Translations under genes and position numbers: made by a program | The notes under the pieces: model-generated | What the model saw: the letters and a program-made list of their open reading frames with translations, nothing else | What the model was told of the DNA's origin: nothing | The model's database searches: none | Shown here: positions 1 to 15,202 of the stretch, piece after piece | Layout: the number at the start of each line of letters is the position of its first letter | How positions within the stretch are numbered: position 1 is the first letter of the stretch | Assembly (NCBI GenBank): GCA_913778765.1 | Contig: CAJYXO010000032.1 | Span: 1-64,000 of the forward strand | Source of the DNA: an uncultured Massilia sp. | GTDB taxonomy: Bacteria > Pseudomonadota > Gammaproteobacteria > Burkholderiales > Burkholderiaceae_D | Length of the DNA stretch: 64,000 nt | Reading direction: 5' to 3'

Positions 1-128
1 TAACTGGTTGTGGACCTACAATCACGACCGGCCCAACATGGCGCTCGGCGGTATCACGCCAAAACAGAAATTGGCACTTGCCGCTTAACCTCTACTTTTA
101 GCGCGCTCTAAAAATGGGGGGATTACCC
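1..128 (+). mobile_element. Right end of an IS3-family insertion sequence
   Basis: The transposase tail is followed by about 40 bases ending in AAAAATGGGGGGATTACC, which resembles the terminal inverted repeat region beyond orfB in IS3-family elements. The exact outer base cannot be fixed because the left end is outside the window; 128 is an estimate. The next open frame begins inside this end (ATG at 114), which suggests that the element truncated that gene. Confidence 0.5.
2..88 (+). CDS. IS3-family transposase (OrfB), C-terminal end only
   Basis: The first 28 codons are open and end at TAA. They encode the typical C-terminus of the IS3-family DDE integrase-like transposase, with the run WTYNHDRPNMALGG followed by ITPKQKLA. 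In this family that stretch lies just past the catalytic DDE core, so the rest of the gene lies left of the window. The protein would cut and join the element ends. It is seen here only as a tail, so activity cannot be judged. Confidence 0.85.
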   Translation, partial: NWLWTYNHDRPNMALGGITPKQKLALAA

Positions 129-473
129 TTCGACCTTATTGAAGAAACCGTACGCTTTCAATTTGTGCAGCTTGGGAAAGCATATCGAGACCTATTAATA
201 CATGCACTGCGACAAACAGGAAACACTGATCTCGTGCCAAAGATATTCGACTTTGCACTGGCTTTGGAACTTGGGGTTTCATCAAAGACTGGCACAGCCT
301 ATGTTGAACTCGGCCTCTCGAGAATTGCCGCGTCTGCGCTCGAACGCCTGTCGCCTAATGACGGCCCCCTCACAGTCGAGGCTGCACGTCAGCTTCTTCG
401 AGAGTTGAATGTCGAAAGCGCAAACCTTAGTCCAATTATAGTCACGGAGCTGCATCGCCTAGGTCTCGTATGA
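114..473 (+). pseudogene. 3' remnant of a helicase-like gene truncated by the IS
   Basis: A 119-residue open frame whose first few codons lie in the presumed IS end. The remainder (from about PFDLIEETVRF) is helical and carries the pattern ELGVSSKTGTAYVELGLSR. I associate this pattern, from memory and weakly, with C-terminal regions of large DEAD/DEAH-type or defence-related helicases. The most economical reading is the C-terminus of a larger gene interrupted by the IS. It has no convincing ribosome-binding site of its own. An independent small hypothetical protein is the alternative. Confidence 0.4.
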
Positions 474-496
474 ACCTAAGCTCAAGCATAAAAGTA

Positions 497-1582
497 TTAT
501 CTCGAGAAACCCAGATCTCGGTCTTTGCTTCGCTGAGGCTTGAGTTCTGGCTCGCGCTCGAGATGCGGATGGCGTCCCTCTGTCTCGGGAGGGCGTTGCC
601 GCTCCTTTTTGGCTAGCCTTAGTTGGGCCAGCCGTTGCCAGTCTTTTTCGGCCTTGTACGCCTCGTACTTGGCTCGGAAGTCGGCCCGCCCGCTGTCCAG
701 GTGTGCCTGGAATGCCTGCCGCTTCTGCACTTCTTGAGCGTCGCGCTGCGCGATCGCAGCCGCCAGGTCGCCTGACAGGTCCAGGATCGATCGGTCAGCG
801 GCCTGGCCCTGCCGCTCCAAGTGGCCCGCCACCTTGGCCGCCGCGAGCCTTTCGACAATCTCGCATTCGAAGTCCAGCCGCTTGCGGCACGGCTTACCGG
901 TTCTTCGCTCGATGGCAGTCGCGGTTGGGCCCATGTGCTGGGTCGGTGTCCGCTCGATGCCCTGCGCCTCCAACGTCCGGTGATCGATCCTTGCGTCGTG
1001 ACCCAGTGCCTGTAGCCGCTCGTTCGTCAGCTCGGCCCATCTGGTGCGAATTCGATTGATCTCGTTGGCCTTGCCCACGCCACCGCCCATGTTATGCGCC
1101 ACCAGGTCCAGCTCGCGCACCTTGTTACCCAGGCCATCGCTCTCGATGCGGTTGGAGGTGGTCAGGATGTGCGCATGGTGGTTCCGGTTGTCCCCCGCCT
1201 GGTCTGGCGCGTGGATCGCGACGTCGGCCGCGATCCCGTAGCGGTCGGCCAGCTCCTGGGCGAAGTCCACCGCCAGCCGGCGCCGCTGGCCGGCGTCCAG
1301 TTCTTCGGGCAGGGCCACCAGGAACTCGCGCGCGACCTGGGCGTCGGCGCGCTTGTTCTTCGCCTCGACAGCGTTCCAAAGTTCGGTGCGCGTCGGCTGC
1401 CACGTTGAGCCGGATGGCATCACGAGATCGGCGGACTGCAGGCCGCGCTTTCTCGTGAAGTCGTGGACCTCGCCTGTACGCTGGTCGACGATCTGCTCGC
1501 AAGCGCGATAGGCCGCCGCCGCGGTCGAGCTGCGCCCGGCCTTGCGGCTGATGATCTTTGCCGACAGGTGATAGATCGCCAT
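497..1582 (-). CDS. mobA: MobA/MobL-family relaxase (MobQ class)
   Basis: A 361-residue plasmid-type relaxase that would nick the oriT and remain covalently attached to the transferred strand. The N-terminus MAIYHLSAKIISRK is the usual start of the MobA/MobL (Ti TraA-like) family. The metal-binding three-histidine motif is visible as NRNHHAHI around residues 132-139. The ATG at 1582 was preferred over an upstream in-frame start because the family begins at this MAIYHL. The protein stops soon after the relaxase domain and a charged Lys/Arg/Glu tail, so it lacks the helicase domain of full TraA. The oriT lies about 55-85 bp upstream, and a TraD-like gene diverges from the other side. Confidence 0.88.
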   Translation of the reverse strand: MAIYHLSAKIISRKAGRSSTAAAAYRACEQIVDQRTGEVHDFTRKRGLQSADLVMPSGSTWQPTRTELWNAVEAKNKRADAQVAREFLVALPEELDAGQRRRLAVDFAQELADRYGIAADVAIHAPDQAGDNRNHHAHILTTSNRIESDGLGNKVRELDLVAHNMGGGVGKANEINRIRTRWAELTNERLQALGHDARIDHRTLEAQGIERTPTQHMGPTATAIERRTGKPCRKRLDFECEIVERLAAAKVAGHLERQGQAADRSILDLSGDLAAAIAQRDAQEVQKRQAFQAHLDSGRADFRAKYEAYKAEKDWQRLAQLRLAKKERQRPPETEGRHPHLEREPELKPQRSKDRDLGFSR

Positions 1583-1635
1583 GGCGCGCTCGCTGTTGAC
1601 GTTGGGGTTGTCCTTGGCCCGCCGCAGGCGCGCAC

Positions 1636-1668
1636 GCAAACCGACAGGTTTGCATTAAGTGCGCCCTT
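1636..1668. other. Origin of transfer (oriT), IncQ/MobQ type
   Basis: A perfect 7-bp inverted repeat GCAAACC (1636-1642) / GGTTTGC (1647-1653) with a 4-base loop is followed after two bases by TAAGTGCGCCCT (1656-1667). The hairpin plus this core matches the nic region organisation of IncQ-type (RSF1010/R1162, pSC101) origins, where the MobQ relaxase nicks within the TGCGCCCT part. It sits in the divergent gap between mobA and the TraD-like gene, exactly where such an oriT is expected. Confidence 0.85.
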
Positions 1669-1846
1669 GGTCTCGCTTCGCTCGTGCTCGGGACGCGGCA
1701 GGCGCTACCACTGTCTCAGCTGGCCGGGCTCATCGGCGTGAGCTATCTCAGGCGGGCTCAACCGGCATCGCGTGGTCCAGATCTAGCGCAACCCGAATGG
1801 CATAAGCGAGGTGAACACTAGAGCCTGAACTTGCTTTGGAGCGGAC

Positions 1847-2143
1847 ATGAGCAATCCCATCGACAAGGCGCAGCAGCGAATCGACGAGCTACAGCAAAAG
1901 CTGAAACAGGCGAGGGCCCTGAAAAGCCGGATCGAAGCGCGGCAGAGGGGGGCTGAAGCCAAGCAAAAGCGGGCAGAGGAGACGCGACGAAAAATCCTCG
2001 CAGGAGCGCTCGCGCTCGAGATGATGGATCGCGACGAAGGCGTGAGGGCACGCTTCATGGCGCGCCTGGACAGGTTCCTCACTCGTGCGGACGACCGGGC
2101 CCTCTTTGGGCTACCGCCACGTACTCAAGTGCCGACGACCTGA
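1847..2143 (+). CDS. TraD-like conjugal transfer accessory protein
   Basis: A 98-residue, highly charged protein. Residues 5-50 are a predicted coiled coil rich in Gln, Lys, Arg and Glu. They are followed by the RRKILAGALALEMM segment and a C-terminal FLTRADDRALFGLP motif typical of the small TraD family (PF06412) that accompanies TraA/MobA-type relaxases. It probably assists relaxosome assembly at the adjacent oriT. The ATG has a GGAG box six bases upstream. It is transcribed divergently from mobA across the oriT, the usual layout of MobQ modules. The role is inferred from family and position. Confidence 0.78.
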   Translation: MSNPIDKAQQRIDELQQKLKQARALKSRIEARQRGAEAKQKRAEETRRKILAGALALEMMDRDEGVRARFMARLDRFLTRADDRALFGLPPRTQVPTT

Positions 2144-2326
2144 GTTGCTCCAGCATCGACCGGTCAACTTTTGACGGATAGCGAACTGGACTGAAGTTGG
2201 CGCACGAGTTCGGAAGCGCAACGCAGGCAGTGCGCCAGGAATTTGGTGGGGACGGACCGCACCCAGCACGGCGTCGCGCGCAACGGAGATTGGTTCTGAT
2301 TGGCCGGGGAGGCGTATGGCGCGCGT

Positions 2327-3379
2327 TCATCGCAGGGATTGCGCCCGGTGTTGTATTAGGGATTGCTCGGCCTCGGACTGCTCTGGATTCCATGTTTTCC
2401 ATTGCTCGGCCTCGGCGTGAAACGCTTGGCTATCGACGGTTCGAGGTCTCCACAATGCTACCTCGGGGTTAGCGGTTCGACCGAAAACATACCGATGGGC
2501 ATGCTCAACCGTGAACTGCTGTATCTGAGCGGCCAGCTCCACCGGTGCGACGGTTCCTCTTGGTAGCTGTCGTTTGGCCCCGATCTGCGTGTACATGAGG
2601 TGGGCAGGGCTTAGCGGCATAAAGATCACAGTACCTGGGCTGGCCCAACCACCTCTAAAGTCGTAATCTTCCGCGTCCCTGTAGTTGAGGCGTACAACAG
2701 GGTTATCGCTCGTGAGCCATTCGATTCCGGGCGGGCTGAGCAAAATAGTCCAGCGGTGATTGTTTAGTACATCGAGAGTTCTGTTCAGCACGTGCTTGAG
2801 GCTCCATAGCCACATGCTGCGTCCTATCGTCGCTTCGACACGAAGCATTCCGCCATCTTTATCCGCATTGGTCTCAATGACTGTACGTACAGGGAAAAGC
2901 TCGGCGTTCTCAAGGGGATCGGCCGTTGGGAAAGCAATGCCTGTGCGCTTGGCTACCTCTAGCTTTTGCACCGCTTCAGCCGCAACTTCATTGATAAGGG
3001 AAGGCAATGTCTCGTTCCATCGTTTCAACTGCCCCACCAGCTGGGCAGGAGTCCTAACATCCTGAGCAGCAAGAAAGCGAATTAACCGCCTCCAATCTTC
3101 TGCACTAAGTTGTCGATCAGTCACCGCCTGTTGAAGTGGTCTTGCCGCTGGCGTCTCAAATTCCGTTTCGAACCATGTTTCAATATCATCGGTCTCGCCA
3201 CCTACTGCCATTCGCGTGTAGAGGTGCTCATGGTAACCAATGCCTTTAGGCGAATGCGGCTTCCACTCGTACGTGTTTTGGTGCGGCACCAGAACGCGAT
3301 AGGTCAATACTTTCCCTTGCACATTGGCCCAACGCTTCAGATAACTGTCCGGTACATAATGATTGTCGCGCTTAATCAA
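2327..3379 (-). CDS. DUF4238 domain-containing protein
   Basis: A 350-residue protein starting with NHYVPDSYLKRWA, the hallmark N-terminal HYVPxxYL signature of DUF4238 (PF14022), whose function is not established. The start is a TTG at 3379 with a GGTGG-like site upstream; it places the signature at residue 7, as in the family. It lies 61 bp downstream of the TIR gene on the same strand and is probably co-transcribed with it. Two 15-bp direct repeats (2362-2376 and 2401-2415, ATTGCTCGGCCTCGG) 39 bp apart encode an AEQ-type repeat near the C-terminus. Its position in an island of antiviral-type genes makes a defence role plausible but unproven. Confidence 0.75.
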   Translation of the reverse strand: MIKRDNHYVPDSYLKRWANVQGKVLTYRVLVPHQNTYEWKPHSPKGIGYHEHLYTRMAVGGETDDIETWFETEFETPAARPLQQAVTDRQLSAEDWRRLIRFLAAQDVRTPAQLVGQLKRWNETLPSLINEVAAEAVQKLEVAKRTGIAFPTADPLENAELFPVRTVIETNADKDGGMLRVEATIGRSMWLWSLKHVLNRTLDVLNNHRWTILLSPPGIEWLTSDNPVVRLNYRDAEDYDFRGGWASPGTVIFMPLSPAHLMYTQIGAKRQLPRGTVAPVELAAQIQQFTVEHAHRYVFGRTANPEVALWRPRTVDSQAFHAEAEQWKTWNPEQSEAEQSLIQHRAQSLR

Positions 3380-3440
3380 ACTACCACCCTAACAAAAAGT
3401 TATCGCTCAGCGACAGTCGTTAATCACAGGCGGTGTCTCT

Positions 3441-4307
3441 CTAGAACGGCACATCGTCATCCATGTCAGCGAAGTTTGGAGCTGGGCGGGCGAGCGGCTT
3501 AGGGGCCGGCGCTGTGCTGTATGCAGACTCGTTCTGCAAAAACACGTCCAGACCGTCCTCGGTGATTGAGTACGCATAGAACTCATCGCCATCGTTGTCG
3601 ACTTCAACGTTTCTTTCGACATACCCCAAGCGACCTAATTTGATTGCGCTGAGCCGAACCGCGCTTGGGGCCTGACGTCCCATGTGCGAAGAAATACTGA
3701 ACAGTGAAAGGCGCCGCGGATACTCAGTATGGCTCGCTGCACATTCGCCCAGGAACATCAGGTCAGTGCTTGAAAGACTGTACTCGGGCGGGTTGGCGAC
3801 ATGTCTAGGTGCTCCGTCTCCCCGTGCGTGCAAGCCACGCTGAATCGGGCCGTGGCGAGCTATTTCATCTCGTATCTGCTTGCACGCAGCGTTTAGTGCC
3901 GAGGCAAGTTCGCCGTCCGGCCGGTCCGGAACGTAATCCGCATGAGTCACGCCCAAGAGATCCGACGGTAAGTGCATGTCCACGTTTCGCGGGCGAACAA
4001 TGTAGCACCGCTCCTTTCCGAGCGCGCCGATGAAGAGGCCAAGCTCGAATAGAACATTGTCACGTACGACGTGAGCTTCTTGCTCCCTAATGACAGCCAC
4101 ATCATCGGGGGTGAACACAAACACTGCGAAGTCAACTGCCGAAGACTTTTTCACGAGGTCATCGAGAGCACTTGACCCCGGCCTGAACGTCCCAGTCCGC
4201 CAAAGGGTGGGGAAGGTATCGTGGTCGAGGTTTAGGTTGATCGCGTCGGCAACCTTCAACCCTTCCTTCGATGACGCAATGAACACGCTTGGCTTCGTTG
4301 ATTCCAT
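3441..4307 (-). CDS. TIR-domain effector (CAP12/Pycsar type) with C-terminal winged helix
   Basis: A 288-residue protein. Residues 7-150 match the bacterial TIR-like nucleotide-hydrolase domain of CBASS Cap12 and Pycsar effectors (PF10137): VFIASSKEGLKVA near the start, VFTPDDVAVIR at about 64-74, and VVRDNVLFELGLFIG at 80-94. Glu88 sits where the family's NADase Glu lies. A C-terminal region (about 175-265) resembles a winged helix, with a hydrophilic tail to residue 288. Family knowledge predicts NAD+ depletion on activation. No cyclase gene for CBASS or Pycsar is visible nearby, so the activating signal is unknown. The ATG at 4307 was chosen over an upstream TTG because GAAGGA lies eight bases before it. 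Confidence 0.82.
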   Translation of the reverse strand: MESTKPSVFIASSKEGLKVADAINLNLDHDTFPTLWRTGTFRPGSSALDDLVKKSSAVDFAVFVFTPDDVAVIREQEAHVVRDNVLFELGLFIGALGKERCYIVRPRNVDMHLPSDLLGVTHADYVPDRPDGELASALNAACKQIRDEIARHGPIQRGLHARGDGAPRHVANPPEYSLSSTDLMFLGECAASHTEYPRRLSLFSISSHMGRQAPSAVRLSAIKLGRLGYVERNVEVDNDGDEFYAYSITEDGLDVFLQNESAYSTAPAPKPLARPAPNFADMDDDVPF

Positions 4308-4340
4308 GTCGACGTTCCTTCGTTGCAATTCAGTATCAGC

Positions 4341-4371
4341 AGTATAGCGCTTTGAATTGCATTAGTAGCAA
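4341..4371 (-). promoter_or_regulatory. Candidate promoter of the TIR-DUF4238 pair
   Basis: On the minus strand, a near-consensus -10 hexamer TATACT (4341-4346) lies 34 bases before the TIR start codon. A TTGCTA (4366-4371) upstream has a long 19-bp spacing, so only the -10 element is persuasive. Confidence 0.35.
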
Positions 4372-4479
4372 AGCCCTGGTCGATCATTCGAAGGTGCGCC
4401 TCGACGATAGGATAGAGGACTAGGATACCCTGTTGAAGTACCGTTTTGGGGGTAGCGGATGGGGCACGCCATGTAATCA

Positions 4480-4662
4480 CTATGGGGCTTTGCTAACGCT
4501 TCTTAGCCCCGGTTGCGATAATCCAAGCCTTGCCGGTAGGTTCCATGCAGAAGTCTCATACCAAACGCCGTCACGTGGGGTGCGGATGCCCCGTTCATTC
4601 AACACGTTAGTGATCGCACCAGGCGATGTAGTCCTGCACTTGCCTAACCTTACAGTGCTCAC
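4480..4662 (-). pseudogene. Serine-recombinase C-terminal fragment
   Basis: In the 378-bp gap between the TIR and reverse-transcriptase genes, a 60-codon minus-strand frame contains GAITNVLNERGIRTPR followed by WYETSAWNLPARLG. This matches the pattern of the short helix-turn-helix DNA-binding tail of resolvase/invertase recombinases (AIxxxLNxRGIRTPRGGxW). The catalytic domain is absent, so this is a remnant. The rest of the gap holds a short GGGGCT/AGCCCC dyad (4484-4510) and the TIR promoter region, with nothing else convincing. It records an earlier recombination event within the island. Confidence 0.45.
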
Positions 4663-4685
4663 CGCAACTTAGTTTTCCTGTGGAG

Positions 4686-7600
4686 CTATTTCTCTGCTCT
4701 TCTCTTACTGGACATACTATAGCCGATAGGTGCGGGTTTGAACTTCCTATCGCCCCCTTTTCTTCGCTGCTCTTTTCTTAGTTGGCTATGTTCGATGTTT
4801 CCTAGAACATAATAGTCACTAATCCCGCCCTTTACCTGCACCACATCACGAGAGTAGTCCTGAATCATAGGGGCACGTATTCGACTATCCCCATAAAGGC
4901 GATTGTTGATCTGCACAACATAAGCGTGGAGATCTGACGCCGTTGCTTCGACAAGAGAAGCGAAAGTTTTTGTATCGGGGTTCCATTCCAATGCAAAAAG
5001 TGCGTCGACACGTCCGCGTAATTCATTTCGATGACTAATATTCGTAAGGTCGCTGCATATTAAAACGGAAAAGAAGAAATTATTGTGTTGATAAACCGTT
5101 GGTAACGCCCCATGGCCACTTGGAATAAACATTGGCCTGCTTTTGCGACCTAATTTTTTTAGGTTTGCGCGCTCGCCATGAGCCGGCTCGAATTTCGGCT
5201 GAAGAATAATAATATGACTTGCATACCCGGTCCAACGTGTTGTCAACGATATCAGGCAGTCGTTCCTGATATTTCGAGAGGTGCGATCTTTATGATATTC
5301 AACACCTGCAAGAAAAGATACTCCGTTAGATGATAATTTCTTCGCGGCACGTAACGCCCAACGTATAGGTATCGTTAGTTCTGGCATGACAATATAGTCT
5401 GGACGTAATGTTTCTCCTAATATGCGATTAAGTAAGCCATTGAATATTTCATAGCGTTCTAAGGATCGGTCATGCCGATTCTGCGCTGCTGCCGTCCATT
5501 GCTGCTCAGTTGTTTCGCGGCTTGTGGCCGCGATACGTACTGATGGCTTACCTTTGCCAGGGGCGAGGAACTCTACGTGCCTATCATCTTCCGCGGGCGG
5601 TAAAAACCCAATGGGATCGATAGAGCGAACACGAGCCCCGCGTAACGCACCAATTGCCTGCTCAAATAATGCGCGGTCATGTAGCAACCTTGGCGCAATT
5701 AATGCAATCTCGTCGAATGTTAACGGACGGGTTGGAAAGGCTAATGCCGGCCAGTGGGGAACTTTCAGCTTGGCAGCTTCTTCGCGAAATTTACGAATCG
5801 CCCCTAAGCGAATTTGGCGTCGAATCGAAAACTGACGTGGGACAGGTGGACCGTTTTCGTCTTCTTGTTGGTCACTGTACCAGTAATCCTTGTACGGACG
5901 GCGCCCCCAGTCCGCAAGCAAGATTTGCTTCGCTTGGCGTTGTAAGCTTTCCAAGGTGCTTGGTAATCGTACAGTGGCACTTAGCTTTTTCAAGTCTCGA
6001 ATAGCTCGGAAGTATTTCTGATTCACGTCTGTCGTGCGCACGCTAGCTGCTCGCATCCCCGCTTGCAAGAGTGCATGACTATATTGCTCTAGACATAAGT
6101 CGAACTGGCGCTTTTCTTTACGCAAACCCAAGCTCGTCGTTTTCTTCAACATTTCGACAGTGGTTGAGAGAGACTTAACTAATGATCTTGCTTCAGCGTG
6201 ATCACCACTGGCAAGCATCAACCCAAAAATTCTCGGTATATAGCTAAAAAACTGGAAAAAGCCGGCTGGGGTAACGATATGTCGACGCGAAAGGGAATAG
6301 AACTCTTGGCGTAATGAGGCCCAAGTGTCGGGTGCAAGATCGGTCGCATATGTTTCGATGTCGCTTAAAAGCAGAGAAAATCCCAGTCTTCGAACGGACA
6401 CTACGTCGGCTTTTCGCAACGCGTCTACCTGAAGTGTTGCATCAGGTGTCGCTAACAGAGCACGAGAAGCCATTTCATTTGCCTTGTGAGGAACTGCTGG
6501 TAAAAGGCGGTATTCACTAGATTGTGCCCGTATTTGTGCGCGGATATAGTGGATTAGATCCGCGCCATGCTCTGACGATAACGAGAATATTTTTTGCTTC
6601 GTTCCAGCAAAGCGAAGTTCTGAATCCTTTGCGTACGGTAGATTTAGCTTTAGCGAATTTGGCCCATCGCCGTTAACCTCGCTTTTTAACATTGGTGATA
6701 GCGTACTAGAAAGGCGCTGAGCTACACTGAATGCGCTAAGGTCTTGGCTATCTGCATCCAATACTAAGAAGATGTCGTCGACGTAACGCCCGTAATAGAC
6801 TGGGCGAACTTGATCAAGAACTGCTTCATCAAATTTTGCAAGTAATACGTTGGCAATAATTTTGGATGCAGAAAGTCCTACGGGGATAGCTCCGGTTGGT
6901 CTAACTTTATAGTCTGGCGTCTTGCGATACCAAGTTCCTATGGCATCAAGCAGCCATTGGGTAAACCTTCTTTCAGATGCGGTTAAAGTAAGATTGATCG
7001 CCTTTAGAAAACCACGGCGAAGTATAAATTCAGGTGTGACGCGATGGTAGAACTTCTCTATGTCCATCGTTATCGCCAGAACGTTTCTTCCTTTTTCTAG
7101 GCTTCGCTCCATAGCCGATAAGCCCCGTTCCCGCCAATCCTGGTAGGCGGAAAAATATGGGGCGAAGAGGCTAGGCGGAAGCAAGTTTAATTCTGTTTCG
7201 CCAAATGTTTCAGTGTCAGCGGAAGATGTCCTCCGAAGTCTATTGCCGAATGAGACGTCTTGATTCAAAACTGCGTCAAATTTTTGTCCGACTTTTACGA
7301 TCCACAATGCCGAAATGATTTGGAAGTCAACGGTTGGGCGAATGACTAATCGTAAGCTGGCGGTGGCCCGACGGTTATTTTTCGTGAATCTTCTGTCCCA
7401 GTCTTCTAATGGATCAAGTGCGCGGAAATGTCCGTCAGCTGTGTCATCCCACAATGTTTCGTCAATTGATTTTGGTAGATACGCGTGGTCTCCGATGAAA
7501 TTTATATCAAGTGGCCAGTCGGGGTTCGCCGTATTTAGACGGGAAAGCAGTGTCGTTAAATTGGTGTGTAGATTTTGTTCGTATCTTGTAAAAGCGATCG

Positions 7601-7790
7601 CGTGAAAATGGGTATTTTCATAAAAGGCCTCGGCTTTGGCTTTTCGGTAGGCGAGATAGAGGTCGGCGATAGTGAATAGCTTTGGCGAGCGCGGCATATT
7701 AAGCAGGATCAGAGGTAAGATAGCGAATTTTACGCTAGGTTTGATTGGCTGTTCAAAAACCTCTGCAATCTCTAATATGCTGGCTGCCAT
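4686..7790 (-). CDS. Defence-associated reverse transcriptase fused to nitrilase (DRT type 1, UG1-like)
   Basis: A 1034-residue two-domain protein. The reverse-transcriptase part (about 30-420) shows motif A TMDIEKFYHRV with Asp243 and motif C YVDD at 336-339. A helical middle follows. The C-terminal part (about 740-1010) is a carbon-nitrogen hydrolase: MPEL Glu804, QPKFEPAH Lys866 and VLICSDLTN Cys912 fit the Glu-Lys-Cys triad. RT plus nitrilase is the architecture of the antiphage DRT1/UG1 family, so an antiviral role is a strong inference. The ATG at 7790 is annotated; a TTG at 7799 and an ATG at 7697 just before the conserved LFTIADLYLAYRKAK are alternatives, none with a clear Shine-Dalgarno. 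Codon use is markedly A+T-rich compared with the flanking chromosome, consistent with transfer. Confidence 0.88.
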   Translation of the reverse strand: MAASILEIAEVFEQPIKPSVKFAILPLILLNMPRSPKLFTIADLYLAYRKAKAEAFYENTHFHAIAFTRYEQNLHTNLTTLLSRLNTANPDWPLDINFIGDHAYLPKSIDETLWDDTADGHFRALDPLEDWDRRFTKNNRRATASLRLVIRPTVDFQIISALWIVKVGQKFDAVLNQDVSFGNRLRRTSSADTETFGETELNLLPPSLFAPYFSAYQDWRERGLSAMERSLEKGRNVLAITMDIEKFYHRVTPEFILRRGFLKAINLTLTASERRFTQWLLDAIGTWYRKTPDYKVRPTGAIPVGLSASKIIANVLLAKFDEAVLDQVRPVYYGRYVDDIFLVLDADSQDLSAFSVAQRLSSTLSPMLKSEVNGDGPNSLKLNLPYAKDSELRFAGTKQKIFSLSSEHGADLIHYIRAQIRAQSSEYRLLPAVPHKANEMASRALLATPDATLQVDALRKADVVSVRRLGFSLLLSDIETYATDLAPDTWASLRQEFYSLSRRHIVTPAGFFQFFSYIPRIFGLMLASGDHAEARSLVKSLSTTVEMLKKTTSLGLRKEKRQFDLCLEQYSHALLQAGMRAASVRTTDVNQKYFRAIRDLKKLSATVRLPSTLESLQRQAKQILLADWGRRPYKDYWYSDQQEDENGPPVPRQFSIRRQIRLGAIRKFREEAAKLKVPHWPALAFPTRPLTFDEIALIAPRLLHDRALFEQAIGALRGARVRSIDPIGFLPPAEDDRHVEFLAPGKGKPSVRIAATSRETTEQQWTAAAQNRHDRSLERYEIFNGLLNRILGETLRPDYIVMPELTIPIRWALRAAKKLSSNGVSFLAGVEYHKDRTSRNIRNDCLISLTTRWTGYASHIIILQPKFEPAHGERANLKKLGRKSRPMFIPSGHGALPTVYQHNNFFFSVLICSDLTNISHRNELRGRVDALFALEWNPDTKTFASLVEATASDLHAYVVQINNRLYGDSRIRAPMIQDYSRDVVQVKGGISDYYVLGNIEHSQLRKEQRRKGGDRKFKPAPIGYSMSSKRRAEK

Positions 7791-8208
7791 CGCCCGCAAG
7801 GACTGTACGAATCTTCGTAGACGTCAACAGCAAGGCAACGAGAAACTGAGCGGAAGGGGGGGGCTACAAGGGCATAAGAAAGCGTGCAGCACAACGAAGC
7901 GATTTTGAGCACCCCGTGTAGGGGCGATAGTTGGAACTACGTAATCGCTGCTACAGGCCTGTTCACGGTCTACCTCGGCGGACTAGACCAACGCGAATCC
8001 GAGACGAAGGGGCGGCTTAGATCGTCAAGCGAGCCTAATCTCGCATGCTGCGTAGTATGTTCCGTTAGGTAGTGCCCTATGGGGTCTGTGCAGGATTGGG
8101 TGAGTCACTGGCGCAAAAGACGTAGCCGGCAAGTAGAGCTAATAAGTCTGTCGTTTCCCTAGATGAGGCTAGTCTACGTGGGTCAGGCCGACAGTATGGC
8201 TTGGCTAC
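7791..8208. other. Gene-free stretch upstream of DRT1, with a foldable element
   Basis: No convincing gene is seen. A compact multi-stem candidate lies at 7899-7948: outer stem GCGATT/AATCGC, inner hairpin CCCC-GTGTA-GGGG (7912-7924) and palindrome TAGTTGGAACTA (7928-7939). It is about 110-160 bp upstream of the DRT1 start, in the position of a leader or small RNA. A G-run (7857-7863) lies nearer the gene. The remainder has no feature I can name. Confidence 0.3.
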
Positions 8209-8424
8209 TCAGTCGTCCTTTGGCTGCCGTTGCGCAGCCTTGGCCCTTATCCAAGCAAGGACTTCACTGTAGACCCAAGCCGACGATTTCTTCGAAAGCT
8301 TGACCTGGGTCGGAAACTCGCCCTTCTGAATGCTTGCATACAGAGCGCTCCGCGACATGCCGGAAATGTGGAGCACCTCGTCAATTCGAATGAGACGGTC
8401 GGCTGGCGACAGATGGGTTTCCAT
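8209..8424 (-). CDS. AlpA-family regulator / excisionase-like protein
   Basis: A 71-residue single-domain DNA-binding protein. LIRIDEVLHISGMSRSALYA followed by KGEFPTQVKLSKKSSAWV and then EVLAWI is the AlpA/MerR-like helix-turn-helix plus wing of PF05930 (CP4-57 regulator). Such proteins typically activate integrase or act as the recombination directionality factor of integrative elements. The ATG at 8424 is preceded by GAAGGAG with eight-base spacing. It lies about 400 bp from the proposed tRNA-Ser attachment site, as expected for an element-end gene. No integrase is present in the window. Confidence 0.85.
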   Translation of the reverse strand: METHLSPADRLIRIDEVLHISGMSRSALYASIQKGEFPTQVKLSKKSSAWVYSEVLAWIRAKAAQRQPKDD

Positions 8425-8805
8425 TGCTGGGCTCCTTCAAGGTAAAAGTGGCGAAGCAATACTCTTCGCCGCTTGCCATCATAGCAATGTAGTGTTACCC
8501 ATCTTTGAGAAGGACCGCTAACAGAAAGATCGAGCCTTGATACTGTTCAGTTTCTATGCCGTCTTCAATGCCTTTTCGTTGCCTGCGGGCAGAATCTCTT
8601 CAAATTGCCTTGGGGCGTCGGCGTAATCAATTCTGCCTTTTAGGAAACCTGTTAAGGTATGCGTTAACGTTAGCTCTACGTCAAAATTTACCGACCAGGT
8701 AGGTCAGCAATCGGTCAGAGTCAGACGCCTAGGGGCATGTTTGGGGGTACAACGAACTCCAGAATGGAGGAAACCCCAGCATCCATGCGGGCTGCCGGCC
8801 CCGAT
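8425..8805. other. Non-coding end of the island
   Basis: The region is A+T-rich up to about 8,700 and rises in G+C near 8,760. On the minus strand a 50-codon open stretch (8709-8554, TAG at 8554) reads like protein (for example LPAGNEKALKTA before the stop) but has no ATG, GTG or TTG start in a sensible place. It may be a decayed gene end. A TGGGGGTAC motif at 8742-8750, of the kind often seen near tyrosine-integrase attachment sites, precedes the tRNA fragment. Confidence 0.35.
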
Positions 8806-8827
8806 GGGAATCCCCCTCTCTCCGCCA
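8806..8827 (+). other. tRNA-Ser 3'-end fragment, probable attachment site (att)
   Basis: AATCCCCCTCTCTCCGCCA at 8809-8827 equals the T-stem 3' strand, acceptor 3' strand, G discriminator and encoded CCA of a tRNA-Ser. The 5' half, anticodon and T-loop are missing upstream, so this is a partial copy, not a gene. A strong terminator follows at once, as after an intact tRNA. Together these fit the distal att site created when an element integrates into a tRNA 3' end. The intact tRNA-Ser would lie left of the window. Confidence 0.6.
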
Positions 8828-8835
8828 GAATCCCC

Positions 8836-8860
8836 AAGGCCGCCCTCAAGCGGCCTTTTT
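8836..8860. terminator. Rho-independent terminator behind the tRNA fragment
   Basis: Perfect 8-bp stem AAGGCCGC (8836-8843) / GCGGCCTT (8850-8857), six-base loop, then a T run to 8860. It is probably the original terminator of the tRNA-Ser gene. It also abuts the stop of the convergent LysR gene and may serve both strands. Confidence 0.8.
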
Positions 8861-9789
8861 CATTCCCGCGGCCCGTCCACCTGCTCCCAAGGCCGCAACC
8901 CCAGCGCCCCTTGCAGCAACTCCAGAAACCGCATGGTCCGCGCCGACCGCTGCCGCCGGTCCGACCCCAGCAGCGCCACGATATCCGCCCCGGGCAGCGC
9001 ATGATCCGGCAACAGCCGCAGCAAGGCCCCGCTCTGGATCTCGCGCGCCACATCCCACTCCGAGCGCATCATGATCCCGTAACCCTTCAGCGCCCACTGC
9101 TTGACAACCCGGCCATCGTTGCTGGTCAGGCGCGGCCTGATCCGGATCGACGTGAAGTCGGAAGAGCCCGGCGCCTGCAGCCGCCACATCGTCACGTCCT
9201 CGGCGTTTTCCTGCAGCGAGATGCAGGTGTGATGCCGCAAATCGTCGATACAGCTTGGTTGCCCATGCCGCGCGACGTAATCCGGCGAGCCGCACAGGAA
9301 GCGGCGGTTCTTCGCCAGCACCGTCTGCAGCATCGAGGAATCGCGCAGGGCGCCGATGTGGATCACGATGTCCCAGGCGTCGAGGCTTTGGCGGTTCGGG
9401 CTGTCCGACAGCACCAGTTCCACCGATACGTTCCTGTGCTGGGCCTGGAATTGCGCGGCGAGTTCCGCCACGTATTCATTGCCGAAGCCCAGCGGCGCCA
9501 GGATGCGCAAGCGGCCGACCAGCTCGTTCTTGCGGTCGTGCAGGGATTCCTGCAGCTCGTCCATGTCGGCCAGGATCAGGCGGGCGCGCTCGGCCAGCAA
9601 TTGGCCTTCGTCGGTCAGCGTCGTCGTTCTTCCCTGGCGGTTGAGCAGTTTCAGCTTCAGCTTGTCTTCGATCCCCTGCAGGCGCTGGGTCACCGACGAG
9701 GGCGTGACGTTGAGCATGCGCGCGGTGCCGGCGAGCGAGGGCTGGCTGGCCAGCACGCAAAAGAAGCGCAGATCGTCGCTGTTGATCAT
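8860..9789 (-). CDS. LysR-family transcriptional regulator
   Basis: A 309-residue LysR regulator. The N-terminal winged helix covers residues 1-60 (DLRFFCVLASQPSLAGTARM, then TPSSVTQRLQGIEDKLKLKL) and the periplasmic-binding-protein-like effector domain runs from about 88 to 295. The effector is not predictable. It diverges from the S41-like peptidase with a 99-bp gap, the classic arrangement for a LysR protein controlling its neighbour and itself. It is the first chromosomal gene right of the island, and its stop overlaps the terminator T run. Confidence 0.92.
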   Translation of the reverse strand: MINSDDLRFFCVLASQPSLAGTARMLNVTPSSVTQRLQGIEDKLKLKLLNRQGRTTTLTDEGQLLAERARLILADMDELQESLHDRKNELVGRLRILAPLGFGNEYVAELAAQFQAQHRNVSVELVLSDSPNRQSLDAWDIVIHIGALRDSSMLQTVLAKNRRFLCGSPDYVARHGQPSCIDDLRHHTCISLQENAEDVTMWRLQAPGSSDFTSIRIRPRLTSNDGRVVKQWALKGYGIMMRSEWDVAREIQSGALLRLLPDHALPGADIVALLGSDRRQRSARTMRFLELLQGALGLRPWEQVDGPRE

Positions 9790-9888
9790 TCAGTTCAGCC
9801 TTAATGAATGAATTAGAAATGTTTATCCTAATCCATATTTAGCCTTGCTAGACTGCATCCTTATCAAAAAGCGAAGAGGACCGAGACG

Positions 9889-11262
9889 ATGCCGAGACGA
9901 TGGAAGTCTGCCGTAGCAATACTGTGCCTGCTGGGCGCCATGCAATCCGCGCTGGCCCAGACCGAAGCAGTCTACGCCCCGGCGGCGCTGCAACAGGACC
10001 TGCGCTTCCTGCGCGAGGAGATCGACAGGATCCATCCCGAGCCCGGCCTGTTCGTCAGCCGCGAAACGCTGCGCAAGGCCTACGCCAGGTTGGAGGAGCA
10101 GCTGCAGCAGCCGATGAATCGCGACCAGGCCTGGCGCGCCTTCTCCACATTGAATCCGGTGTTCGCCGATGGCCACATGTTCGTGGTGCAGCCGGACTGG
10201 GACGCCCAGACACGGCAGCATCTGGCCGCGGGCGGCCTGCTGTTCCCTTACGAAGTGCAGGTCGATGCGGCCGGCGGCATGCTCATCCGCAGCGGGCTCG
10301 ATGGCAGCGCCGGCGCGCTGGCCGGTACGCGCATCGAAACCATTAACGGCGTGCCGGCTTCCCAGGTGGCGAAGGAACTGCTGGCGCTGATGGCGGGCGA
10401 CACGCCGGCGCTGCGCGCCAATCTGCTGTCGCGCCGCCTGTGGTTCTATTACTGGAAGACCTATGGCGCGCCGCGCCAGTTCGACCTGGTCGTCGCCGGA
10501 CCAGATGGACCGAGGCAGTTGAAGGTCGCAGCCAGCAACGCGATACCGGCCTCCTTGCCGGCCAGCGGAAATGAAGGCTTCGACAAAACCTACCGCTTCG
10601 CACTGTTGCCCGGCGGGGCCGCGCTGCTGACGGTCAACCAGTTCGCCTGGCCGAACCAGCAGGCCTTCTATGCCTTCACCAGGGACGCGTTCACGAAAAT
10701 TCGCGATGCGCAGGTCAAGACCCTGATCATCGATGTCCGCGAAAACACCGGCGGCGACGACGACATGTGGAAGAAGGGCATCCTGCCCTACATCGCCGAC
10801 AAGCCCTTCCGCAACGCGTCCAGCTACGTCAAGAAGGTCATTGCCGGGCGCCAGAGCGGCGCCGAGAAGGTCGGCGACGTCGTCCACGGTTTCGGCGACA
10901 CCTGGATCGAGCCCGAGCCCGCGAATCCGCTGCGCTTTTCTGGCAAGACCTATGTGCTGGTCGGCCGCATCACCTATTCGTCCGCTGTCCTGTTCAGCAA
11001 TGTGGCGCAGGACTTCGGCTTCGCCCGGCTGGTGGGGGCCGGCGGCTATGCGCGGACCCGCCAGACCGGCGGCGTCGTGTCCATCGTCCTGCCGAACACG
11101 CGGCTCGGCGTCACGATCCCGCGCTTCGTGGTCGACCGTCCGTCGGGCGAGCGGGAACCGGCGCTGGTCCACCCGGACATCGTCCTGCCGGACAGTCCCT
11201 TCGACCGCATGGTCACGGTGAACGCCTTGCTCGACCGGATTTCAACTAAACAAAGCCTCTGA
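9889..11262 (+). CDS. Secreted S41-family peptidase-like protein
   Basis: 457 residues with a clear signal peptide (cleavage after about residue 24, SALAQ). An N-terminal helical domain precedes a region starting AGTRIETINGVPA (about 147-159) that looks PDZ-like, and a C-terminal processing-peptidase-like domain follows. RITYSSAVLFSN places the likely catalytic serine at 364/365, and LIIDVRENTGGDDD is the usual strand-turn of S41 proteins. It probably acts on peptides or cell-envelope proteins in the periplasm; the substrate is unknown. It is divergent from the LysR gene, which likely regulates it. The ATG at 9889 gives the intact signal peptide. Confidence 0.82.
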   Translation: MPRRWKSAVAILCLLGAMQSALAQTEAVYAPAALQQDLRFLREEIDRIHPEPGLFVSRETLRKAYARLEEQLQQPMNRDQAWRAFSTLNPVFADGHMFVVQPDWDAQTRQHLAAGGLLFPYEVQVDAAGGMLIRSGLDGSAGALAGTRIETINGVPASQVAKELLALMAGDTPALRANLLSRRLWFYYWKTYGAPRQFDLVVAGPDGPRQLKVAASNAIPASLPASGNEGFDKTYRFALLPGGAALLTVNQFAWPNQQAFYAFTRDAFTKIRDAQVKTLIIDVRENTGGDDDMWKKGILPYIADKPFRNASSYVKKVIAGRQSGAEKVGDVVHGFGDTWIEPEPANPLRFSGKTYVLVGRITYSSAVLFSNVAQDFGFARLVGAGGYARTRQTGGVVSIVLPNTRLGVTIPRFVVDRPSGEREPALVHPDIVLPDSPFDRMVTVNALLDRISTKQSL

Positions 11263-11336
11263 CGAAGGCCAGCGCTGGACTTGCATTTAGGCCATTGCTA
11301 CCATGCCACATCGACAATGCCTCGAGGTGCCGCAGC

Positions 11337-12629
11337 ATGGAACTAAGCGCAAGTCCACCAGAGCAGCAGCCCACGCAAGACGCCGCCCGCGAGGTCGTCA
11401 CCGGCATGCTCTTCGTCGGCCTGCTGTTCTTCATCCTCGGCTTCGTCACCTGGCTGAACGGCTCGCTGATTCCCTTCCTGAAGATCGTCTGCGGCCTGAA
11501 TAATTTCCAGGCCCTGTGGGTCACCTTCGCCTTCTACATCGCCTACACCGTCATGGCCCTGCCGTCGGCCGCAGTGCTGAAGCGCACCGGCTACAAGCGC
11601 GGGATGACGCTGGGCCTGGGCATCATGGGCATCGGCGCCTTGCTGTTCATCCCGGCCGCGCAGACCACCCAGTACGGCCTGTTCCTGGCCGCCCTGTTCA
11701 CGCTGGCCACCGGCATGACGCTGATGCAGACCGCCATCAATCCCTACATCGTCTGCCTCGGCCCGCGCGACAGCGCCGCCATGCGGATCAGTATCATGGG
11801 CCTCTTCAACAAGGGCGCCGGCGTGGTCGTGCCGCTGGTCTTCACCTCCCTGATGCTGAAGGATATCGACACCGCCTCCCAGGCGGTGCTGGCGCAGCGC
11901 CTGGTCTTCCCGTACGCCTGCATGGCCGCGCTGCTGTTCGCCATCATGGCCTTCATCCACTTCTCGAAGCTGCGCGAGATTCCCCTGGACGCGGAGGATG
12001 CCGACAGCCGCATCGACGCCACCTCGGTCCTGCAGTTCCCGCAGCTGGTGCTGGGCGCGCTGGCGCTGTTCGGCTACGTCGGCGTGGAAGTGATCGCCGG
12101 CGACACCATCGGCCTGTATGGCCACGAACTCAAGGTCGCGAACTTCGGTGTGCTGACCTCGTACACGATGGTGTGCATGGTGCTCGGCTACCTGATCGGC
12201 GTGGCGGCGATTCCGCGCTGGCTGTCGCAGCCGCGCGCGCTGATGCTGTCCGGACTCGCCGGCCTGCTGCTGACCGCCGGCGTGGCGCTCGGCTCGACGC
12301 AGGACACCGGCCTGTCGGCGGTGCTGGTCGGCTGGAGCGGCGCGCCGCTGGTGCCGGATACCGTGATGTGCCTGGCGCTGCTGGGCCTCGCCAATGCGAT
12401 GGTATGGCCGGCGATCTGGCCGTTGGCCCTGCAGGGATTGGGCCGCTACACCGCCAGCGGTTCGGCCGTGCTGGTGATGGCGATCGCCGGCGGCGCGCTG
12501 CTGCCGCTGCTGTACGGCCACCTGTCGGACATCGTCACGCCGCGCAGCGCCTACTGGCTGCTGCTGCCTTGCTATGCGCTGATCTTCTGGTACGCGGCCA
12601 GCGGTCACACGATCCGCCGCTGGCGCTGA
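11337..12629 (+). CDS. nagP: Sugar MFS transporter, NagP-like (N-acetylglucosamine)
   Basis: A 430-residue, 12-helix major facilitator of the FucP/GluP/NagP (glucose-galactose permease) family. Diagnostic segments are GFVTWLNGSLIPFLK in helix 1 and QTAINPYIVCLGP in helix 4. It would import a sugar with protons across the inner membrane. The adjacent GH20 hexosaminidase, 13 bp downstream, points to N-acetylglucosamine released from chitin oligomers; that specificity is inferred from context. The ATG at 11337 follows GAGGTG at seven bases and gives the normal family N-terminus; an upstream in-frame start was rejected. Confidence 0.85.
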   Translation: MELSASPPEQQPTQDAAREVVTGMLFVGLLFFILGFVTWLNGSLIPFLKIVCGLNNFQALWVTFAFYIAYTVMALPSAAVLKRTGYKRGMTLGLGIMGIGALLFIPAAQTTQYGLFLAALFTLATGMTLMQTAINPYIVCLGPRDSAAMRISIMGLFNKGAGVVVPLVFTSLMLKDIDTASQAVLAQRLVFPYACMAALLFAIMAFIHFSKLREIPLDAEDADSRIDATSVLQFPQLVLGALALFGYVGVEVIAGDTIGLYGHELKVANFGVLTSYTMVCMVLGYLIGVAAIPRWLSQPRALMLSGLAGLLLTAGVALGSTQDTGLSAVLVGWSGAPLVPDTVMCLALLGLANAMVWPAIWPLALQGLGRYTASGSAVLVMAIAGGALLPLLYGHLSDIVTPRSAYWLLLPCYALIFWYAASGHTIRRWR

Positions 12630-12642
12630 AGGGGAGGGAAGC

Positions 12643-15195
12643 TTGCGTCACCACTTATTCGCCGCATGCGCGCTGGTTTTTCTGGCTGCGCCGTTTGCCA
12701 ACGCCGAAGCGCCGGCAGCCCCGGCAAAGGAAGCGCCGGCCGCGACACAAGGCGCCAGCGCCACCAGGCTCCAGCTGCGCTGGGAGCTGCAGCGCAACCT
12801 GTTCAGCGCACAGCCGCCGCACGGCCGCTCTCAGGCCCGCCTGATCCTCACCAACCGCGACAGCCGGCCCTTGCCGGCGCAGGGCTGGTCGCTCTACTTC
12901 AACTGCCTGGACCGGCTGGAACCCGGCCCGCTGCCGACCGGCCTGGTCCTCGAACAGGTCGCCGGCAGCCTGTTCCGCCTGCGCCCGGGACCCGGCTTCG
13001 CAGGCGTGGCGCCGGGACAGACGCTGGACATCGTCTACTTCTATCCCGACCTGGTGATCAAGCTGGCGAAGGCGCCCACCGGGCCCTACCTGGTCTACGA
13101 CAGCGCGCCCGATGTCGGCGTGGCGATCGGCGACTTCGCATTGCTGCCCACCGACAGGCCAGAGCAGCTCGACCGCGGCGGCAGCGGCGCCAAACCGGTC
13201 GTGACGCCAGCCGACACCTGGCGCCGCAACGCCCGCGCCGACCTGCTGCCGCCATCCGAGGTGCCGCCGGTGCTGCCGACACCGCTGCAGCTGCAGCCGG
13301 GACAAGGCAGGCTGCTGCTGACGGACATGCCCGTCATCCAGGCGCCTGCCGGCTTGAAAAACGAGGCCGCGCTGGCGCGCTCGCTGTTCCCGTCAAGCCT
13401 GGCGACGGGCGGACCAGCCCTCAAGCTGGGAATCGGCGCCATACCAGGCCAGGCCTCGTCCGAAGCCTACCGCTTGAGCGTCGATGCCAGGACCGGCATC
13501 GCCATCACCGGCGCCAGCCCCGCCGGCGTGTTCTACGGCCTGCAGACCCTGCGCGACCTGCTGCCGCTGCCGGGCGCCGCGGACCTCGCATTGAAAGAAG
13601 TGACGATCGTCGACGCCCCGCGCTTCGGCTACCGCGGCTTCCAGCTCGACGTCGCCCGCAACTTCCACGGCAAGCAGACGGTGTTCAAGTGGCTCGACCT
13701 GATGGCGCGCTACAAGCTGAACCGGTTCCACTTCCACCTGACCGACGACGAGGGCTGGCGCCTCGAGATCGCCGGCCTGCCGGAGCTGACCGGCATCGGC
13801 GCGGTGCGCGGCCACAGCGCCAGGCCCGGTGTGCGCCTGCAGCCGGCCTACGGCTCGGGGCCCGATCCGCGCGACCCCAGCGGCAGCGGCTACTTCAGCC
13901 GCGCCGACTACATCGACATCCTGCGCTACGCCCAGGCGCGCCACATCGAGGTGATCCCCGAAATCGAGATGCCCGGCCACATGCGCGCCGCCGTGCAGGC
14001 GATGGAAGCGCGCTACCGTCGCCTGCAAGCGGCCGGGGACAGGAGCGCGGCCAGGTATTTGCTGAACGATTTTGACGACCGCTCGACCTACCGCTCGGCC
14101 CAGTACTTCACCGACAACGTCATCAATCCCGGCCTCGATTCCACCTTCCGCTTCATCGACCACGTGGTGGCGCAGATCGTCGCCATGCACAAGCAGGCCG
14201 GCGTGCCGCTGCACACCATCCACATGGGCGGCGACGAACTCGCGAACGGCGCCTGGGAGAAGTCGCCGGCTGCGCTCTCGCGCATGCGCAGGGAAAAGCT
14301 GGAGAGCAGCGCCGACCTGTGGGACTACTTTTACGACCGCGTCGATGGCATCCTGCGCAAGCACGGCTTGTCGACCTCGGGCTGGGAAGAGCTGGCGGCG
14401 CGCAAGACCACGCTGGCCGGGCGCAGCAAGCTGATTCCGAATCCGCGCTTCACCCAGCGCGGCTTCACGGCCTGGGTGTGGAACAACACGCGCGGCGCCG
14501 AGGACTTCGCGAATCGCCTCGCGAACGGCGGCTATGACGTCGTGCTGGCGCCGGTGTCCGCCATGTACCTGGACATGGCGGCGAACCCGAATCCGGAAGA
14601 GCCGGGCGTCAACTGGAACGATTACGTCGAGCTGGACAGGGTCTACGACTTCACTCCCTTCGACATGCTGAAGGACGCCGATGAGAAGGCGCGCATCGGC
14701 AAGGACGGCCTGACCGACTACGGCAAGCGCCACGTGCGTGGGCTGGAGGCCACGCTGTTCACCGAGACCGTGCGCGACGCCGGCCGCATCGACTACCTGG
14801 TCATGCCGCGCCTGGTCGCACTGGCCGAGCGGGCCTGGGCCGCGGACCCCGACTGGGCGCGCGAAGCGGATGCGGACAAGGCGGCCGCGCTGCACCGCAA
14901 GGCGTGGTCGGGCTTCGTGAATGCGCTGGGCCAGCGGGTGCTGCCGCGCCTCGACCTGGACGGCAGCAGCGTGGCCTATCGCATCGCACCACCCGGCCTG
15001 ATGCTGGATGGCGGGCAGGTGCTGGTCAACCACGTCCTGCCCGGCATCGACCTGCGCTACACGACCGACGGCAGCGATCCCACGGCCACCAGCAAGCCGG
15101 TGACGGGACCGATTACCGAAACAGGCGTGATCAGGGTAGCGGCCTTCGACCGCAACGGCCGGCGCGGACTGGTGGCCGGCATCGATCGGCGTTGA
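12643..15195 (+). CDS. Secreted beta-N-acetylhexosaminidase (GH20)
   Basis: 850 residues. The signal peptide (about 1-21) is followed by a CHB_HEX N-terminal carbohydrate-binding domain, a GH20b domain, a catalytic TIM barrel (about 330-760) and a CHB_HEX C-terminal domain with the TTDGSDPT pattern. The catalytic pair is Asp531-Glu532 in MGGDELANGAW; HFHLTDDEGWRLEI and EIEMPGHMRA are other GH20 signatures. It cleaves terminal GlcNAc from chitobiose-type oligomers in the periplasm or outside the cell. It starts at a TTG at 12643 with a strong GGGGAGGG site. It likely forms a two-gene operon with the NagP-like transporter, which would import the released sugar. Confidence 0.93.
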   Translation: MRHHLFAACALVFLAAPFANAEAPAAPAKEAPAATQGASATRLQLRWELQRNLFSAQPPHGRSQARLILTNRDSRPLPAQGWSLYFNCLDRLEPGPLPTGLVLEQVAGSLFRLRPGPGFAGVAPGQTLDIVYFYPDLVIKLAKAPTGPYLVYDSAPDVGVAIGDFALLPTDRPEQLDRGGSGAKPVVTPADTWRRNARADLLPPSEVPPVLPTPLQLQPGQGRLLLTDMPVIQAPAGLKNEAALARSLFPSSLATGGPALKLGIGAIPGQASSEAYRLSVDARTGIAITGASPAGVFYGLQTLRDLLPLPGAADLALKEVTIVDAPRFGYRGFQLDVARNFHGKQTVFKWLDLMARYKLNRFHFHLTDDEGWRLEIAGLPELTGIGAVRGHSARPGVRLQPAYGSGPDPRDPSGSGYFSRADYIDILRYAQARHIEVIPEIEMPGHMRAAVQAMEARYRRLQAAGDRSAARYLLNDFDDRSTYRSAQYFTDNVINPGLDSTFRFIDHVVAQIVAMHKQAGVPLHTIHMGGDELANGAWEKSPAALSRMRREKLESSADLWDYFYDRVDGILRKHGLSTSGWEELAARKTTLAGRSKLIPNPRFTQRGFTAWVWNNTRGAEDFANRLANGGYDVVLAPVSAMYLDMAANPNPEEPGVNWNDYVELDRVYDFTPFDMLKDADEKARIGKDGLTDYGKRHVRGLEATLFTETVRDAGRIDYLVMPRLVALAERAWAADPDWAREADADKAAALHRKAWSGFVNALGQRVLPRLDLDGSSVAYRIAPPGLMLDGGQVLVNHVLPGIDLRYTTDGSDPTATSKPVTGPITETGVIRVAAFDRNGRRGLVAGIDRR

Positions 15196-15202
15196 GCCGG
15201 TG

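Follow-up and report, generated by a model that had tools for sequence, protein, structure and literature searches.

An intact UG5-nitrilase reverse transcriptase, sister to DRT1, encoded by an uncultured Massilia sp.

In this study, a 64,000-nucleotide stretch of DNA from an uncultured Massilia sp. (GenBank assembly GCA_913778765.1, contig CAJYXO010000032.1, positions 1 to 64,000 of the forward strand; hereafter the window) was analyzed for a minus-strand gene that encodes a reverse transcriptase (RT) and a nitrilase domain in one polypeptide. Comparison with sequence profiles identifies the product as a UG5-nitrilase RT and a sister of DRT1 (UG1). Its family, its intactness, and its folds are well supported, and a role in defense is likely. 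We consider it fairly probable, by analogy with DRT1, that this UG5-nitrilase mediates abortive infection as a single polypeptide through a DRT1-like mechanism, of which protein priming, control by oligomers and a lid, and abortive infection itself would carry over by homology. Since an anti-phage UG5-nitrilase has been published (PMC9122126), the kind is already known, and the window copy is a further member that is new within it.

Gene Structure and Family Assignment

The minus-strand frame runs uninterrupted from a TTG at 7799 to the stop codon ending at 4686 (1037 amino acids by open reading frame analysis), and the plus strand at the coordinates of the gene is riddled with stop codons. 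An earlier note on this DNA, made from the letters alone, had placed an RT and a nitrilase in one polypeptide and left the strand unstated; the single intact open reading frame (ORF) on the minus strand bears out this architecture. The numbering of that note starts from the ATG at 7790, which gives 1034 amino acids. The ATG at 7697 is the likelier start on sequence grounds, giving 1003 amino acids, because conservation sets in at about this point and, among the four full-length relatives that are nearest, L026, L028, and L029 (not L025) have a Met-Pro pair near it. No strong ribosome-binding site was evident by eye before the 7697, 7790, or 7799 starts. Residue numbers given here follow the 1003-residue version unless stated otherwise, and spans of PADLOC matches refer to the 1037-residue version. 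The residues that the note had named (Asp243, YVDD 336–339, Glu804, Lys866, and Cys912) are all correct in the 1034-residue numbering; they correspond to D212, YVDD 305–308, E773, K835, and C881, and each of them except V306 is invariant in the 74 aligned members described below.

The top PADLOC model is RT_UG5-nitrilase (PDLC03780, E 2.4e-283), which covers residues 42–1034 of 1037 of the protein and positions 21–897 of 907 of the profile, a match far above chance. Further PADLOC matches comprise RTasNitrilase (E 4.1e-44, residues 766–1028 of 1037), a second UG5-nitrilase model (E 4.5e-42), and RT_UG5_small (E 1.6e-33). The note had labeled the protein as DRT type 1. This label gives way in the comparison of profiles, where the Drt1a models reach only E 3.8e-31 and E 1.5e-7 against the value of 2.4e-283 for UG5-nitrilase, and membership in DRT1/UG1 is therefore rejected. 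The only Pfam family matched by the RT part is the general RVT_1 (E 4.8e-8), and NCBIfam returns three RT matches, all below threshold, including the Retron St85 model at 33 bits (cut-off 235); group II models are absent from them. An origin from a retron or a group II intron, against which the note had set its reading, is likewise rejected, as the best sequence match is to neither kind of RT. Among solved proteins, the closest by sequence is DRT1 (9YFD), with E 5.2e-5 by phmmer and E 9.3e-15 for a three-sequence profile. With its best PADLOC profile in UG5-nitrilase and its best solved match in DRT1, the window protein is therefore assigned, on its sequence, to the UG5-nitrilase RTs as a sister of DRT1/UG1. 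We take UG5 to fall in class 3 of the Mestre classification. Class 3 UG/Abi RTs are defined as those that combine an RT with a nitrilase or a phosphohydrolase domain (PMC13275509).

Conserved Residues and Predicted Structure

A scan of species genomes with a three-member alignment yielded at least 365 confirmed relatives, and the analysis continued with the best 80; these 80 span nine phyla, and 56 of them are from Pseudomonadota. For the family alignment, the best 80 of the at least 365 relatives and four additional loci (L105–L108) were considered. Eleven of these 84 loci were omitted because of an interrupted frame, a cut at a contig end, or a start that was not found (L027, L032, L043, L064, L084, L086, L090, L094, L100, L107, and L108, the last because it is distant, with 26% identity), leaving 73 members and the window protein. 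The aligned members share 24–61% identity with the window protein. In addition to the catalytic residues of both domains (Table 1), the nitrilase residue E842 and the tail residues K987 and P990 are invariant in all 74, and G992 is conserved in at least 90%. S394 is the sole invariant serine of the 74 members. In a 76-sequence set that adds two plasmid members, 105 columns reach a conservation of at least 95%, and S394 is the one serine in them.

The AlphaFold2 model of the window protein has a mean predicted local distance difference test (pLDDT) score of 91.4 and a predicted template-modeling score of 0.92. Its ten best Foldseek matches include nitrilase/amidase folds (6ypa, 4lf0, and 5h8j) and UG/Abi RT folds (UG15/DRT4, AbiK, and AbiA), and in the model the C-terminal third adopts a nitrilase/amidase fold, in line with the expectation of the note. 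AbiK, AbiA, and DRT4-UG15 resemble the window protein in their RT fold, with Foldseek E-values of 3e-7 to 3e-6, and differ in that their TM-scores by query length are just 0.22–0.29; we know of no nitrilase in these three proteins, which we presume to belong to class 1. RTs of UG/Abi class 1 make template-free, protein-primed DNA (PMC13275509). DRT1 (9YFD) itself is absent from the top 50 Foldseek matches in a library that ends on 2026-04-08. Profile–profile comparison with DRT1 gives probabilities of 99.7 for the nitrilase part and 98.8 for the RT part. S394 lies within a predicted helix (residues 375–397), in a stretch of lower confidence just past the RT palm where the block means are 80 and 74 for residues 381–400, and confidence falls below 50 at residues 417–430.

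Comparison With DRT1 and Proposed Mode of Action

The note had called this family poorly understood. This now applies in part: the structure and dissection of DRT1 were published in 2026 (PMC13275509) and the anti-phage activity of a UG5-nitrilase in 2022 (PMC9122126), while for DRT1 its authors still list the substrate of the nitrilase and the full trigger as open questions (PMC13275509). According to the same report, DRT1 uses its own S402 to prime DNA synthesis without a template, and RT-dead and C1116A mutants lose defense. The DNA adducts drive filament formation, the nitrilase site is closed by the C-terminal tail, and the K1219A and A1223F variants defend as poorly as tail deletions (PMC13275509). 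DNA synthesis without added template is also described for the class 3 systems DRT5S and DRT5L, and the DNA of DRT5 is protein-linked; the term "UG5" does not occur in the main text of that source (PMC13275509).

The window protein and DRT1 share their domain order, homologous RT and nitrilase domains, and the K-x-x-P-x-G motif at the C terminus, and in each a serine past the RT palm is conserved. They differ in length (1003 versus 1229 amino acids in 9YFD), and the profile match to Drt1a is far weaker than that to UG5-nitrilase. In the alignment from the profile search, K987, P990, and G992 fall on K1219, P1222, and G1224 of DRT1. S402 sits in the segment EVGTSSIPER of 9YFD, and its column holds serine in nine of ten DRT1-like sequences; in the remaining one (L220), the next serine comes two positions later. 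Profile alignment places S394 exactly on S402 in four of 12 runs, as did one earlier run.

Based on these correspondences, the following sequence of events may be proposed for the window protein. In the resting cell, the RT would extend one of the protein's own serines, most likely S394, with a short stretch of DNA synthesized without a template. This DNA would promote oligomers of the nitrilase domain, in which the active site of each would be shut by the C-terminal tail of a neighbor carrying the K987-x-x-P-x-G motif. A phage event, perhaps acting on single-stranded DNA, would release the tail, and the Glu-Lys-Cys nitrilase might then attack an essential small molecule or a protein amide, so that the infected cell would halt growth ahead of phage release.

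Several observations weigh against this proposal. In six of the 12 profile runs, including all three whole-family runs, S394 lies three residues off S402, in one run it is 21 residues off, and in one the position is uncovered; moreover, according to the authors of the DRT1 study, other class 3 DRTs do not conserve S402 (PMC13275509). Because of these shifts in register and this statement, S394 is offered only as a candidate counterpart of the priming serine. A single-sequence Pfam scan of the window protein gives no nitrilase match at E 0.1, so that the nitrilase domain is assigned from PADLOC, profile, and fold evidence. The Foldseek matches also include the group II-like G2L4 RT at rank 14 and, lower down, RTs of diversity-generating retroelements and retrons, and the RT fold alone is therefore unspecific. 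Finally, the UG5-nitrilase for which activity has been published acts with a membrane partner (PMC9122126), and no such partner is visible beside the window gene.

That published system comes from a P4 hotspot of Escherichia coli and protects against phage, its activity having been measured at room temperature (PMC9122126). It pairs a membrane protein with a UG5 RT whose C-terminal part is a nitrilase (RT-nitrilase + 1TM; PMC9122126). The window protein combines the same two domains and matches the UG5-nitrilase profile at full length over both. The RT of the E. coli system is described as resembling the type I DRT and yet falling in a different clade (PMC9122126). The window protein is approximately 32% identical to a member from an E. 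coli plasmid, not necessarily the one tested in that work. Within the genus of the window, one genome (G046) contains an RT ORF in which YVDD and LSGP motifs occur, along with a second ORF that matches the nitrilase part of the UG5 profile (L003 and L019). These are two genes close together on one contig instead of one, and by eye the RT motif is more DRT1-like than UG5-nitrilase-like.

The single-residue predictions at S394 and K987 probe whether the DRT1 mechanism extends to the UG5-nitrilases, and the window copy, being compact, complete, and without a visible partner gene, is a clean test subject for them.

Relatives in Other Genomes and Alternative Explanations

Genomic context was compared for 82 loci, comprising the best 80 of the at least 365 relatives together with L105 and L106, with broken and contig-cut loci included. 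Within 6 kb of the RT gene, BREX genes are present at 16 loci, type I restriction–modification (R-M)-like genes at 15, and a Drt1b-type membrane gene at four, and 47 loci have none of these; for the 67 loci whose flanks extend to 3 kb or more on both sides, the respective numbers are 15, 12, four, and 36. L099, where a PglX half lies 3 bp downstream, was counted among the loci with none since it lacks PglZ, BrxC, and BrxL. In ten of the 16 BREX loci (L041, L044, L047, L048, L050, L052, L053, L087, L091, and L101), PglX consists of two ORFs, divided at about residue 634, that enclose the RT-nitrilase gene, often with overlaps of one or four bases; among the other six, PglX is full length in three and partial or not found at threshold in three. 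The N-terminal PglX half of L052, a Marinobacter locus, contains the methylase domain, and its C-terminal half has no Pfam match. Nesting of an RT-nitrilase gene in BREX loci or between PglX halves was not found described in a search of the open-access literature. That some relatives are nested within BREX or type I operons, in part between PglX halves, suggests a link of RT-based with modification-based immunity, and these relatives offer testable clues to how the window gene may switch on.

One explanation of this nesting is that UG5-nitrilase effectors are kept silent by a BREX or type I R-M complex and freed by phage anti-restriction proteins. There is a precedent in PrrC, which a linked type I R-M enzyme keeps inactive until a phage anti-restriction peptide activates it (PMC2610378), and the 16 BREX and 15 type I loci among the 82, often with 4-bp overlaps, together with the ten split PglX genes, would fit such an arrangement. 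However, 51 of the 82 relatives (the 47 with none of the genes and the four with a membrane gene only) have neither BREX nor R-M genes in their flanks, and the same is true of the window, where no BREX or type I R-M genes were found within positions 1–16000. The R-M genes of L028 lie approximately 2 kb away and on the opposite strand. Because other defense genes also occur between PglX halves (SduA_C in L044 and TIR_2 in L053), this stretch may be a general cargo site. Furthermore, the loci were selected by their RT gene, and the BREX and R-M counts have no background rate beside them. Taken as an account of the window gene, silencing by such a complex is unlikely. By eye, an ATPase-like gene was also seen between the PglX halves of L048 and L091.

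We regard as similarly improbable an extension of this idea in which UG5-nitrilases are plug-in suicide modules: a DNA adduct made by the RT on the invariant serine would lock the nitrilase, and BREX with its split PglX, a type I enzyme, or, where a copy stands alone like that of the window, free DNA ends of the phage would unlock it. If true, this would amount to a guard of the PrrC kind whose antitoxin is DNA that it makes itself.

Another explanation divides the work between two genes, with a membrane protein (Drt1b/RTasTM) that kills and an RT-nitrilase that regulates it; the window copy would then be an orphan or have its partner elsewhere. Drt1b-type genes lie 13–55 bp from the RT gene in four of the 82 relatives (L034, L090, L105, and L106; on the opposite strand in L105), two of them confirmed with PADLOC, and three of the four fall in the clade of the window protein. 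The validated E. coli UG5-nitrilase system also has a membrane partner (PMC9122126). On the other side, no Drt1b-type gene was detected in the flanks of the remaining 78 relatives, and DRT1 functions without Drt1b (PMC13275509). A search of the gaps at 4329–4690, 7698–8215, and 8421–8806 for membrane-type ORFs of at least 35 amino acids gave none, and the peak 19-residue hydropathy did not exceed 1.42; a membrane partner beside the window gene is thus rejected. We doubt that such a division applies to the window gene.

The intergenic regions bear on whether the RT copies a cis-encoded non-coding RNA, as in DRT2 and DRT9, with the complementary DNA as the active product. The window gene is flanked by approximately 510 bp upstream (to AlpA) and approximately 360 bp downstream (to the TIR gene) that are without an annotated gene, which would leave space for such a template. 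Against this, among the 60 relatives with same-strand ORFs of more than 150 amino acids on both sides, ten leave no room for an adjacent non-coding RNA because the ORFs are 30 bp or less away on each side. No Rfam match was obtained at the gathering threshold in positions 1–9000 of the window, and the 600-bp upstream regions of the window gene and 12 near relatives have no blastn similarity at E 0.01, a weak test for such diverged sequences. With the tight spacing in relatives, no Rfam match, and no shared upstream sequence, an adjacent non-coding RNA is not supported, and we judge this explanation very unlikely. That the gene encodes a functional RT with a non-defense, for example domesticated, role is highly improbable in view of its family assignment, its island setting beside a TIR gene, its invariant catalytic sites, and the nesting of some relatives in defense operons. 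A self-contained, DRT1-like abortive-infection protein is the account that we prefer.

In the tree, the window protein groups with a Nitrosomonas ureae protein (61% identity) and three copies from Acidobacteriota with a support of 100 (quick method, SH-aLRT). Among 101 host-near genomes including the host, a full-length UG5-nitrilase match occurs only in the window's own genome, and 17 have some match at E 0.001, mostly to the RT part. Across 398 genomes of the phylum, the UG5_small model is matched at 1e-25 in five (including the window's own) and Drt1a at 1e-40 in seven. A single-protein search revealed no viral copies and no match in phage records, and no DRT1 copies were found in viral contigs. 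An alignment-based search for viral copies gave 80 loci, of which L105 and L106 were used, L107 and L108 were dropped, and the other 76 were not taken in.

Island Setting and Neighboring Genes

The note had described an intact copy in a genomic island, which agrees with the complete set of catalytic residues and with the low G+C content, relaxase gene, and tRNA-Ser repeat of this region. On the minus strand, the genes follow the order AlpA, RT-nitrilase, TIR, DUF4238, and relaxase (Table 1). The G+C content is 46–51% across positions 4001–8000 versus 62–71% from 9001 to 20000. With at most one mismatch, the tRNA-Ser repeat has only two sites in the genome; the other, with one mismatch, is the 3′ end of a tRNA-Ser(GGA) gene on another contig (C124; L231:3537–3627), which adjoins a tyrosine integrase gene. 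In eight of the 41 genomes searched, the match to the window sets in with the first bases of the tRNA-Ser tail and continues from there. The repeat pair, the integrase beside tRNA-Ser(GGA), the G+C shift, and the breakpoint matches in other genomes fit the insertion of an island at tRNA-Ser, with the RT gene lying close to the right end of the island. Because the window begins at the contig start, the left part of the island is missing from it.

TABLE 1. Coordinates of the RT-nitrilase gene, its key residues, and other features of the window.
Feature	Positions	Strand	Remarks
UG5-type RT-nitrilase coding sequence	4686..7697	−	1003 amino acids; alternative starts ATG 7790, TTG 7799
D212, RT motif A aspartate	7062..7064	−	Invariant in 74/74 aligned members
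YVDD 305–308, RT motif C	6774..6785	−	Y305, D307, D308 invariant in 74/74; V306 at least 90%
S394, candidate priming residue (putative)	6516..6518	−	Invariant serine in 74/74
Nitrilase/carbon-nitrogen-hydrolase domain, residues ~697–970	4788..5609	−	PADLOC, predicted model, Foldseek
E773, nitrilase catalytic Glu	5379..5381	−	Invariant in 74/74
K835, nitrilase catalytic Lys	5193..5195	−	Invariant in 74/74
C881, nitrilase catalytic Cys	5055..5057	−	Invariant in 74/74
C-terminal tail, residues 979–1003, K987-x-x-P990-x-G992	4689..4763	−	Putative lid, by analogy with DRT1
AlpA-like island regulator	8209..8424	−	PF05930 E 6.2e-16
TIR-domain protein (CAP12/Pycsar-type TIR)	3441..4328	−	PF10137 E 1.2e-30; PADLOC TIR effector E 2e-49
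DUF4238 protein, function unassigned	2327..3379	−	PF14022 E 2.9e-28; adjoins TIR gene
MobQ/MobA-MobL relaxase of island	497..1639	−	PF03389 E 1.8e-61; NF041496 234 bits vs. cut-off 200
tRNA-Ser 3′-end repeat, 21 bases; putative island boundary (attR-like)	8807..8827	+	

Among the ORFs neighboring the relatives (present at 81 of the 82 loci), blastp at E 1e-5 gave no match to the TIR or DUF4238 genes, and the relaxase was matched at one locus only (L069). A conserved partner among the window neighbors is rejected on these grounds, and the three genes are treated as passengers of the island because they are nearly absent from the neighborhoods of relatives. The TIR gene is probably an independent defense gene; no cyclase gene was found among the neighbors examined. 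Between the RT and TIR genes, a small minus-strand ORF (4483–4662) has no Pfam match and is perhaps a remnant; judging by a motif in its letters, we take it to resemble the tail of a serine recombinase.

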